Below, one piece after another: positions 2,732 through 5,095 of a stretch of DNA of 18,305 nt. The notes below the pieces were generated by a model, which saw only the letters and a list, made by a program, of their open reading frames with translations, did not search any database and was not told the DNA's origin. Within the stretch, counting starts at the first letter, position 1. Each line of letters starts with the position of its first letter. Origin of the DNA: Proteiniphilum sp. (lineage in GTDB: Bacteria; Bacteroidota; Bacteroidia; Bacteroidales; Dysgonomonadaceae); the NCBI GenBank assembly GCA_012728465.1, contig JAAYFB010000245.1, forward strand, positions 1 to 18,305, given 5' to 3'. Both the position numbers and the translations under genes were made by a program.

Positions 2732-3610
2732 ATGAAAGTAGCACTATTCGGAAGTTCATTCAATAAGCAAGCACCTAAGGCTGAATCTCAAATCATTACA
2801 GTGTGTATGTTTTTGCATAGCCGAGCTAGCCAAGTTTTTCTTAATCAATCATTATATCAATCGCTGTCCAAACAAGGACAACTAATGCTTAAGGAACTTT
2901 GCACCCCTTTTACAGACTTACCTGATGCTGACATTGCATTAAGCATCGGAGGTGATGGAACTTTTTTGAGGACGGCAAATACTGTTGGCCGCTCTGGAAT
3001 GCCCGTATTAGGAATTAACACTGGAAGACTTGGATTTTTGGCCGACATCAACTTTCACGATTTAGATGAAACACTTGATGAAATTTTCAATGGTGAATAC
3101 ATTATTGAGGAGAGACAGCTACTCGAAGTAAGTAATAATAAAAGCGGAGCCGAATCTCAATACGCGTTAAACGAAGTTGCTTTACTGAAACAAGACACCT
3201 CGTCGATGCTAACAATACACACATACATTGACAATGATTACCTAACGTCATATCAAGCAGATGGACTAATAGTTGCTACTCCTACGGGTTCAACTGCTTA
3301 TGCACTTAGTGTAGGGGGCCCGATATTGATGCCAAAATCATCTAGTCTGGTTTTAGCACCTATTGCTCCTCACAACCTTACATCAAGACCACTTGTTGTA
3401 AATGATGACGTGAAAATAAGAATAAAAACTGAAAGCAGAAGCAATACTTTTCTAGTCTCTACCGATGGCAACTCGAATATTTTTAAAACCTCTACTGAAA
3501 TTAGTATCTCTAGGGCAGACTACACACTGAAAGTGATAAAAAGAGTGGGGCACAGCTTTTATGATACACTACGAGACAAATTGCTATGGGGTGTGGATGT
3601 AAGAAAATAA
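2732..3610 (+). CDS. nadK: NAD kinase
   Basis: This enzyme phosphorylates NAD to NADP in the cytoplasm using ATP or polyphosphate. The 292-residue protein has the normal length and every family signature. These are GGDGTFLRT at 73-81 with the catalytic GGDG, the segment LGINTGRLGFLAD at 93-105, the NE motif at 147-148 (ALNEVALLK), and the glycine- and threonine-rich segment DGLIVATPTGSTAYALSVGG at 177-196 that binds the substrate. The DGNSN segment near 245-249 fits the late family motif. The start at 2732 gives the expected beta-strand opening MKVALFGSSF. The 111 bp before it hold no clear promoter box, so transcription with the ACT-like gene is plausible. I see no hairpin terminator just after its stop. 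Confidence 0.97.
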   Translation: MKVALFGSSFNKQAPKAESQIITVCMFLHSRASQVFLNQSLYQSLSKQGQLMLKELCTPFTDLPDADIALSIGGDGTFLRTANTVGRSGMPVLGINTGRLGFLADINFHDLDETLDEIFNGEYIIEERQLLEVSNNKSGAESQYALNEVALLKQDTSSMLTIHTYIDNDYLTSYQADGLIVATPTGSTAYALSVGGPILMPKSSSLVLAPIAPHNLTSRPLVVNDDVKIRIKTESRSNTFLVSTDGNSNIFKTSTEISISRADYTLKVIKRVGHSFYDTLRDKLLWGVDVRK

Positions 3611-3884
3611 ACAAATATCCTACTTCATTTTTACTGTGAAACAATTGCGTACTAATTATTGCAGAATAAAAGAAAAAGAGGTGCAAATCAAAAACAAAAA
3701 GATAGCACTATGTCTAGAGAAAAGCAAATTTAACATTTAGAGTAAGTGATAAAAATATATAGTTAACCAATTTAACTGTGTCGAAAATATCGTTGTTAAT
3801 ATTTTAACCAAAAACAATACCATAAAACACTCAATCACCTAATATTCAAACACAAACCATTTTAGCAATTGTAAATCTTACTGC
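3611..3884. other. gene-free stretch before the palindrome array
   Basis: This AT-rich DNA between the nadK stop and the first array palindrome has no credible reading frame. It holds two short inverted repeats built on the same half-site: AGTTAA/TTAACT with a 5-nt centre at 3761-3777, and GTTAA/TTAAC with a 4-nt centre at 3795-3808. Neither has a following T-run that would make a good terminator. A minus-strand TAnnTTTG match at 3725-3732 has no gene to serve and is probably chance. Confidence 0.5.
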
Positions 3885-4050
3885 AAAACCAACTTTGGTT
3901 TTAGACTTTATAAAAAAATGAAGACTTAAACCAACTTTGGTTTTACTAATTTCATTCACTTTTCATACTGTTTCTAGGTTGTGATGACTATTTATTATTC
4001 AAACCAAGCCTTAAAGGTTAATGAAAGTTACAAAATGGCGTAAAATGGGC

Positions 4051-4110
4051 AAAACCAACATTGGTTTTAGTTCACCTGAAAGTATTTAAATCAAATGCAA
4101 TGTTGGTTTT
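4051..4110 (+). repeat. 60-bp direct repeat, copy 1
   Basis: This copy contains array palindromes 3 and 4 plus the 24 bp between them. It aligns with 4261-4319 with five mismatches and one single-base gap. The segment between the palindromes contains a smaller inverted repeat, TTCA-CC-TGAA, at 4071-4080. The conserved linker shows that the units arose by duplication and are not merely scattered binding sites. Confidence 0.85.
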
Positions 4111-4260
4111 ACATTGATTTTTTTGAAAATCTTCAATTCAATGTTGGAAAAGCATCGAAAATTTCCATATAATACCAATCCAGAGTAGGAATGAGCGCAA
4201 CACATCACAAAATATGTAAAAATAACATCAAAATAGACACAAATTATTAATAAAGTTTTC

Positions 4261-4319
4261 AAAACAATATTGGTTTTTGTTCACTTGAAAATATTTAAAT
4301 CAAATCCAATGTTGGTTTT
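4261..4319 (+). repeat. 60-bp direct repeat, copy 2
   Basis: This is the second copy of the paired-palindrome unit, 210 bp (five 42-bp steps) after copy 1. Its linker keeps the inner inverted repeat as TTCA-CT-TGAA at 4280-4289. One base is missing from the left arm of its first palindrome, yet the distance between palindrome centres is still 42 bp. Confidence 0.85.
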
Positions 4320-4503
4320 TGTTCAAATTATTTCAAAAGTAGTAAAACCAAAGTTGGATTGACAGTAAATAATTTCAATAATTGTAGAATCAATCATGGT
4401 ATTACAGTAATATATTTAGTAAGGCATAAAAATGTCTATGCCAGATATTCACATAAGGTATTAGTCTTAGTAGTAGCATTTTCACATAATAGCTATAAAG
4501 CAA

Positions 4504-4540
4504 TAAAGTCGGATGAACTTATTTTATTCATCCGACTTTA
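4504..4540 (-). terminator. hairpin terminator downstream of the distal ompH gene
   Basis: Perfect 14-nt inverted arms (4504-4517 and 4527-4540, TAAAGTCGGATGAA and its complement) enclose a 9-nt loop. On the minus strand the stem is followed by a T-rich run (TTGCTTTAT), and it begins 46 nt after the ompH stop. It fits an intrinsic terminator for the envelope operon. It is less convincing for the plus strand. Confidence 0.75.
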
Positions 4541-4585
4541 TATGATGTTTGTACCGCAACAATTAATGCGTTGTAACCATTAATC

Positions 4586-5095
4586 TTAGATACCAAGTTT
4601 TGTTTTCACAAATGCTGTAGCATTAACTGACGCATCGTTTATATAAACTATTGGAGACTGTTGTGTTGAGATATCAAAGATATATGCATATCCTTTCTCA
4701 TCACCCACCTCTTTTATAGCTTTAGATATTTTCTCTTGAATAGGTGCTAAAAGCTTCTGTTGTAACTCTTGCATCTCTCTTCCGCTATTCTGTTGAAACA
4801 TTTGATATCTTTCGCCAATTTGTTCAAGTTGTTTTTGTTGATCAGCTTTAGTTGCTTCAGAAGCAGTATCGAAAGTTTTTTGAAACTCTTCAGCCTTTTT
4901 GTTGTATTCTGCTATAAGCGCTTCCCCATCTTTAGTAATGGATTCCTGCTTTTTGGTTAACTGCTCTTCTATTCCTGGCAATTCAGGCATAAGGCTAAAG
5001 ATTTCCGCAGCATTCACGTATGCTACAGTGTTGTTCTGAGCAATTGCCACCATAGGAGCTATTGCCAGCAATAATACTATTAATTTTTTGGTCAT
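4586..5095 (-). CDS. ompH: OmpH/Skp-family periplasmic chaperone (distal copy)
   Basis: This 169-residue secreted protein has a signal peptide (TKKLIVLLLAIAPMVAIAQ) with likely cleavage after AIA or AQ near residue 20. The mature part opens NNTVAYVNAAEIFSLMPELP, like the Skp strand that reports YVDxxxIF. A long Lys/Glu/Gln-rich helical region at about 40-125 would form the coiled-coil tentacle, and a short strand-rich end (YAYIFDISTQQSPIVYIND) completes the trimer base. Skp/OmpH holds unfolded outer-membrane proteins in the periplasm for delivery to BamA. It is the second of two adjacent paralogues downstream of bamA, separated from the first by 63 bp that contain a good promoter box. A strong hairpin terminator follows. 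Confidence 0.92.
   Translation of the reverse strand: MTKKLIVLLLAIAPMVAIAQNNTVAYVNAAEIFSLMPELPGIEEQLTKKQESITKDGEALIAEYNKKAEEFQKTFDTASEATKADQQKQLEQIGERYQMFQQNSGREMQELQQKLLAPIQEKISKAIKEVGDEKGYAYIFDISTQQSPIVYINDASVNATAFVKTKLGI

Follow-up and report, generated by a model that had tools for sequence, protein, structure and literature searches.

The window (the whole analyzed stretch of 18,305 nucleotides of Proteiniphilum sp. DNA) contains nadK, which ends at 3610 on the plus strand, and an ompH-like gene, which ends at 4586 on the minus strand. The two genes are convergent around an array of palindromes, and the initial annotation was right that both of them end there. The features of the locus are as follows (positions in the window).

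2732..3610, plus strand: nadK, leader-side neighbor, ending toward the element (Pfam NAD_kinase)
3729..4403, both ends approximate, plus strand: whole element copy, leader to tail (alignment with C319, C399, C464, and others)
3729..3884, plus strand: leader with TTAAC dyads (copy alignments)
3762..3776, no strand: leader dyad GTTAACCAATTTAAC (leader pattern)
3795..3808, no strand: leader dyad GTTAATATTTTAAC, 33 bp past the first leader dyad (leader pattern)
3885..3902, no strand: unit 1 dyad AAAACCAACTTTGGTTTT (pattern scan and copy alignment)
3927..3944, no strand: unit 2 dyad (pattern scan and copy alignment)
3969..3986, no strand: unit 3, degenerate, likewise in other aligned copies (copy alignment)
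4051..4068, no strand: unit 5 dyad (pattern scan and copy alignment)
4093..4110, no strand: unit 6 dyad (pattern scan and copy alignment)
4134..4151, no strand: unit 7 dyad, weak (copy alignment)
4176..4193, no strand: unit 8, degenerate (copy alignment)
4260..4277, no strand: unit 10 dyad (pattern scan and copy alignment)
4302..4319, no strand: unit 11 dyad (pattern scan and copy alignment)
4344..4361, no strand: unit 12 dyad (pattern scan and copy alignment)
4386..4403, no strand: unit 13, the last dyad, decayed and close to the end of the tail, four mismatches (copy alignment)
4586..5095, minus strand: ompH-like gene, tail-side neighbor, ending toward the element (Pfam OmpH)

The AAAACCAANNTTGGTTTT pattern, at up to three mismatches, matched the window nine times, whereas 0.35 matches were expected from shuffles; the maximum in 200 shuffles was two, and none of the 200 gave nine. 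Seven of the nine matches lie inside 3885–4361 with zero to two mismatches each, and the two outlying ones (4589 and 9356) have three mismatches each. Together with a weak site found by eye (CAATTCAATGTTGGAAAA, 4134–4151; unit 7 in the copy alignment), the seven matches make up the array of eight palindromes that had been described. The site centers, read off by hand, are at 3893.5, 3935.5, 4059.5, 4101.5, 4142.5, 4268.5, 4310.5, and 4352.5, and the center-to-center steps are 42, 124, 42, 41, 126, 42, and 42 bp. Relative to a 42-bp grid, the array slips by 2–3 bp in total over 459 bp, which corresponds to 0.29 turn at 10.5 bp per turn. Neighboring sites therefore lie on one face of the DNA, yet the window array as a whole is turned by about 100 degrees; the one-face register claimed for all sites holds between neighbors but not along the full length. 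The leader further to the left (from ~3729), the degenerate units in the gaps (3969 and 4176), and the decayed unit at 4386 had been overlooked.

A coding repeat (42 bp being 14 codons) was excluded, as no ORF of at least 90 aa overlaps 3611–4585. An intrinsic terminator was also rejected: the CCAA/TTGG stem appears too weak, and a dozen in series would be unlike terminator design. Past the ompH stop, the window has a terminator-like perfect inverted repeat of 15 bp (ATAAAGTCGGATGAA/TTCATCCGACTTTAT) at 4503–4541.

A dispersed intergenic element

The window's own assembly (G000; 2.54 Mb in 472 contigs, 89% complete) matches AAAACCAANNTTGGTTTT at up to three mismatches in 108 places, versus 59 for the reversed control. 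The matches with zero to one mismatch that were followed stand mostly in series with the 42-bp register. BLAST with the C319 copy as the query gave at least 56 matches (40 of 72 candidates scored), and the window was matched over 3750–4378. The first alignment comprised 19 pieces with CCAANNTTGG-type dyads, the window included. Fifteen of them run off a contig end, so a leader and a tail on separate contigs may be one element. The 17 places found with the strict leader pattern, which cover both copy groups described below, are the safer lower bound for the number of elements.

The element consists of a ~155-bp leader with GTTAA/TTAAC dyads, which also carries TTTAAC, followed by 12–13 units of 42 bp, and measures ~0.65 kb overall. 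In both copy groups (including L024 and L217–L221, and 3762–3808 in the window), the leader dyads GTTAA-N5-TTAAC and GTTAA-N4-TTAAC are 32–34 bp apart, or ~three turns. When the loci are printed in 42-base lines, different copies have a common unit order for up to 12–13 consecutive units. Units 3, 4, 8, and 9 are degenerate across the aligned copies, unit 8 less so in some, and the copies stop shortly beyond the last dyad, with no separate tail seen. Internal deletion or truncation is found in C356, where the leader is directly joined to units 10–13, and in C402; broken dyads and degenerate units are also present. A CRISPR array, which would have near-identical repeats and unique spacers, was ruled out, as the dyads vary and the spacers are common to the copies in unit order. 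None of the 20 CCAA-type and 10 D/E-type pieces is overlapped for more than 60 nt by an ORF of at least 80 aa. What the window contains is one diverged copy of an element that is dispersed, intergenic, non-coding, and ~0.65 kb long.

The initial annotation had considered a dedicated chromosome-organizing, segregation (partition), or boundary site. Phased dyads would suit such a site, as would the convergent gene setting, which is seen at the window copy and the C319 copy. However, many copies lie beside unrelated genes (of 24 flanking genes, taken as ORFs of at least 100 aa next to 20 pieces, 15 have their end toward the element and the other nine start away from it), and the patterns are absent in the sampled relatives. 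Instead of being a single locus of this kind, the array belongs to an element dispersed through the genome, with its leader at 17 places or more and array pieces in far greater number, and a dedicated site is now very improbable. The scattered genome-wide repeat with random spacing that had been named as the case against a phased array applies by half: the repeat is scattered, but its spacing is not random.

Another explanation is REP/BIME-like palindromes mobilized by RAYT, the REP-associated Y1 transposase; it would suit palindromic repeats that stand between genes in regular series. According to passages of PMC2817692, REPs are set in BIMEs with regular spacing and alternating orientation. 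REPs are dispersed extragenic palindromes of 20–40 bp, whereas the present element is an ordered one of ~0.65 kb. In addition, Y1_Tnp (PF01797), one of the two transposase families searched in G000 (the other being PF01609), gave no match in this 89% complete assembly, although five of 14 control genomes were positive. An origin of the REP/RAYT kind is hardly plausible.

Dyad exchange and constraint

With a leader locus as the query, at least 19 further contigs were matched, some only briefly (40 of 59 candidates scored); this count leaves out contigs with the window's type only, and C356 carries both types. Ten pieces of this second group could be aligned along their length with the window copy, C319, and C399; the leader is present in seven of them. 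At the same centers as the CCAA-type dyads, the second group has type D (AATGTCA-NN-TGACATT) or type E (AACCACA-NN-TGAGATT), the latter with reversed orientation in units 5–6. What separates type A (AAAACCAA..TTGGTTTT) from type B (AATCCCAACGTTGGGATT) is a set of paired changes in units 1, 2, 5, and 6. The unit 2 dyad occurs at one center in three versions, AAAACCAA..TTGGTTTT, CATCCCAA..TTGGGATG, or AATGTCA..TGACATT. Between C319 and C399, 11 of 56 arm pairs are altered on both sides with pairing retained.

The dyad switch is incomplete within a copy, because the B and E copies keep mixed types (units 11–12 of B copies retain A-type or hybrid dyads, and unit 11 of E copies holds a D-type dyad), unit 10 has no dyad in seven of seven D/E pieces, and some D-type dyads are broken (3/7 paired in unit 1 of C413, 2/7 in unit 6 of C413 and C256). 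Type E dyads pair at only five of seven positions (six in one). Their sites in units 1–2 are reverse complements of those in units 5–6, and the two blocks pair at 42–48 of 56–60 positions. Such incompletely paired, reversed dyads are more in keeping with inverted blocks than with a site for a strict homodimer.

In dyad-anchored alignments, with units called palindromic from C319 and with non-independent copy pairs, C319 and the window copy differ at 3 of 64 core positions (CCAA/TTGG), 86 of 191 spacer positions, and 12 of 16 center bases (core versus spacer, Fisher p 2.7e-10). The corresponding values for C319 versus C464 are 1/64, 86/192, and 11/16. Changes private to the window copy (C464 = C319) amount to 3/63 in the core versus 17/106 in the spacers (Fisher p = 0.029). 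The same columns of the degenerate units are not slower (10/30 versus 37/95 in the spacers). Positions C6, A7, A8, T12, and G13 do not vary among the 61 distinct units, and T11 is kept in 58. The core conservation partly reflects the choice of C319-palindromic units, and master copies may account for another part.

Of 71 steps between neighboring homologous dyads, 70 measure exactly 42 bp, the exception (41 bp) being units 6–7 of the window copy; three-unit steps are 126 (10 cases), 125 (13), or 124 bp (1), and five-unit steps are 210 bp in six of six. Indel events per substitution, summed over nine non-independent pairs, are 16/509 in the leader and 14/1391 in the array, and C399 and C170 keep the register without an indel at 46% array identity. 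The helical register and the sequence specificity of the dyads, both suspected from the window, are supported by the retention of register and half-site core between copies whose spacers are 23–46% different.

Palindromes are known to be perfected by template-switch correction. A functionless, neutral minisatellite, spread by recombination and with its palindromes kept by such correction, would accommodate the deleted or truncated copies, the broken dyads, and the degenerate units. Correction would match the arms to each other, but it would not fix CCAA/TTGG across copies with spacers 45% diverged. Nor does this explanation fit with units 1, 2, 5, and 6 having changed type together while their unit-specific spacers stayed, or with the intact register of the C399–C170 pair. 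We regard it as unlikely.

The main rival explanation is a structured nucleic acid, that is, a transcribed or single-stranded element in which the dyads form hairpins or the blocks of units 1–2 and 5–6 form a long stem, with selection on pairing and not on sequence. The dyads do change with pairing kept, the type E blocks are complementary as described above, and the predicted fold of the window array is stronger than those of its dinucleotide shuffles (z −3.48, with 1 of 100 shuffles equal or better). On the other hand, 38 distinct dyads have no excess of G-U (6 G-U versus 9 A-C), and the innermost A-T cannot pair across a 2-nt loop, yet A8 never changes and T11 rarely does. Within the inverted blocks, spacer pairing is limited to 7–14 of 24 positions, an exact 42-bp spacing has no evident reason in RNA, and a scan of the window gave no Rfam match at the gathering score. 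A structured nucleic acid is a possible explanation, though not a probable one. We read the dyads as double-stranded protein sites.

Distribution in relatives and other phased arrays

The strict paired-site pattern was found in none of nine same-genus genomes, and BLAST with a copy likewise found none. No OmpH-like ORF adjoining nadK was seen by eye in stretches from nine same-genus genomes; the nadK–ompH gap, which had been put forward for comparison in relatives, is not common to them. The looser pattern was not found in 100 other genomes of the family, and 392 further genomes of the order (drawn evenly from the larger group) gave no match to the leader pattern. In the order, the looser pattern matched nine of 392 other genomes, six of them with at least three matches. 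The control matched six genomes with one to two matches each, against 10 for the real pattern, so single matches mean little. Those in G161 and G330 proved to be plain tandem repeats of 43 and 21 bp, respectively, and the single match in G338 falls in an apparent coding sequence. The G220 and G366 matches were dropped as open (coding) repeats, as copies have TAA where others have TAT or TAC. No plasmid matched one element copy. Viral contigs gave four leader-pattern and two triple-dyad matches; no leader was present in the 520 bases inspected of each of two viral contigs (L266 and L267).

A blind scan for palindromes (arms of at least 6, loop of up to 4, any sequence or spacing) over 78.5 kb in 20 of the 472 contigs of G000 revealed a second array type of unrelated dyads, with TTTCCGNACGGAAA every 41–42 bp and CTGAAAAGTTTTTCAG midway. 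In G000, TTTCCGNNCGGAAA has 27 exact sites on nine contigs, and 29 at up to one mismatch versus two for the control. The steps of this second family are 41–42, 83, and 125 bp. Its loci are L167 (C55, 7381–7570), C3, C153, C179, C218, C222, C308, C366, and C437. In the alignment, the copies mostly have a sharp left end and units that decay gradually rightward, and one of eight copies (C153) overlaps an ORF of 111 aa.

In G228, which belongs to another family of the order, the adjacent spacings in a 400-kb sample were 10.5 (5 cases), 21 (7), 31.5 (3), and 41–42 bp (16); two of the 20 stretches sampled were picked for looser-pattern matches, and nine of the 16 spacings of 41–42 bp are in arrays already known from these matches. 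There were also 17 spacings of 9.0 bp, and those printed are overlapping AAACCT/AGGTTT hairpins. The array loci are L145 (4586–4702), L149 (8547–8736 and 17993–18098), L161 (3499–3871 and 14284–14389), and L162 (12394–12599). These arrays use different palindromes, and one locus shifts from CCGACNNGTCGG to CCCAANNTTGGG along the array. In G138, the 42.0-bp spacing occurs 10 times in 40 kb chosen around known matches. A 400-kb sample of G001, of the same genus as the window, has no 42-bp spacing peak. Neither do G220, with a spacing of 42.0 once and of 9.0 thirteen times, and G366, with none at 42.0; G330 gave little in the palindrome scan. Short tandem arrays of TTCGAA or TCTAGA every 9 bp are present in G220 (L188 at 8464 and 19179, L190 at 14261). 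Any tandem repeat of 21 bp with dyad symmetry produces half-period spacings such as 10.5 bp, so what needs explaining is the period of 21/42 bp.

Proposed role and known systems

Here, we propose, with moderate confidence, that the window array belongs to a MITE-like element with sites, on one face of the DNA, for a dimeric DNA-binding protein, the specificity of which changed between subfamilies. The element is short, non-coding, multi-copy, and intergenic, as MITEs are, and would be mobile but non-autonomous. Neither terminal inverted repeats nor a target-site duplication was seen by eye at the copy ends in the alignments, and three DDE_Tnp_1 loci matched the ends of five copies at chance level only; the binding protein and the transposase partner of the element were not found. 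The dyads may be double-stranded sites that a cooperative dimer occupies every four turns on one DNA face, with a predicted half-site NA[AT][ACT]CCAA in the window's subfamily and a looser A-W-N-N-N-M-A across subfamilies. A change in the specificity of the protein, or of the paralogue used, between subfamilies would have led the dyads of units 1, 2, 5, and 6 to change together; the leader and the register stayed through this change, with units 10–12 not always following. The likeliest role of the bound array would be to silence or insulate the element and its target site, or to serve the enzyme that moves it.

In mycobacteriophages, the sequence of the stoperator site follows the specificity of the repressor between immunity groups. 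As described in passages of PMC9283540 and PMC6550527, stoperators are many dispersed repressor sites, asymmetric and phage-borne, whereas phased dyad clusters in a bacterial genome are found here; we use them as a working analogy and make no claim of membership.

Closer in plan is BrickBuilt, a MITE of Porphyromonas gingivalis (Klein 2015, PMC4596501). In the passages concerned, it is exclusively intergenic and species-limited and has a leader, an internal repeat array, a tail, partial copies, and 19 copies in number (PMC4596501). It differs in its 23-nt direct repeats ("palindrom" occurs zero times in the main text) and its IS5-like terminal inverted repeats, which were not found here; bidirectional promoter activity was shown for BrickBuilt in E. 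coli (PMC4596501). MITEPgRS/MITE464 of the same species, compared by description, is MITE-like and present in ~10–20 copies, with terminal inverted repeats and with 41-nt internal tandem repeats, close to the 42-bp unit (PMC4596501). Both share with our element an intergenic setting and an internal array, built of 23-nt units in BrickBuilt and of 41-nt units in MITEPgRS; dyad symmetry, phase, and dyad exchange within one family were not found in passages of PMC4596501. The literature searched, by title and abstract opening, gave no description of phased dyad arrays.

Descriptions of bacterial MITEs usually center on the ends, and the insides are taken as filler. In this element the inside is the conserved part: the register and the palindromic core outlast the spacers, and dyads of several units are swapped at the same center. 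Swaps at kept centers are the expected look of co-evolution with a DNA-binding partner, and they make that partner findable. The many dyad sequences in the arrays of other genomes cannot all be explained by one protein. We tentatively suggest that, in some genomes of the order, phased dyad arrays are a general architecture, namely mobile intergenic platforms with a fixed register of two or four turns (~21/42 bp) and an exchangeable dyad module, which might be read by co-evolving families of dimeric proteins that polymerize on one DNA face. If the phase rule holds across the order, a protein–DNA scaffold without a description in the literature searched may sit in its intergenic DNA.
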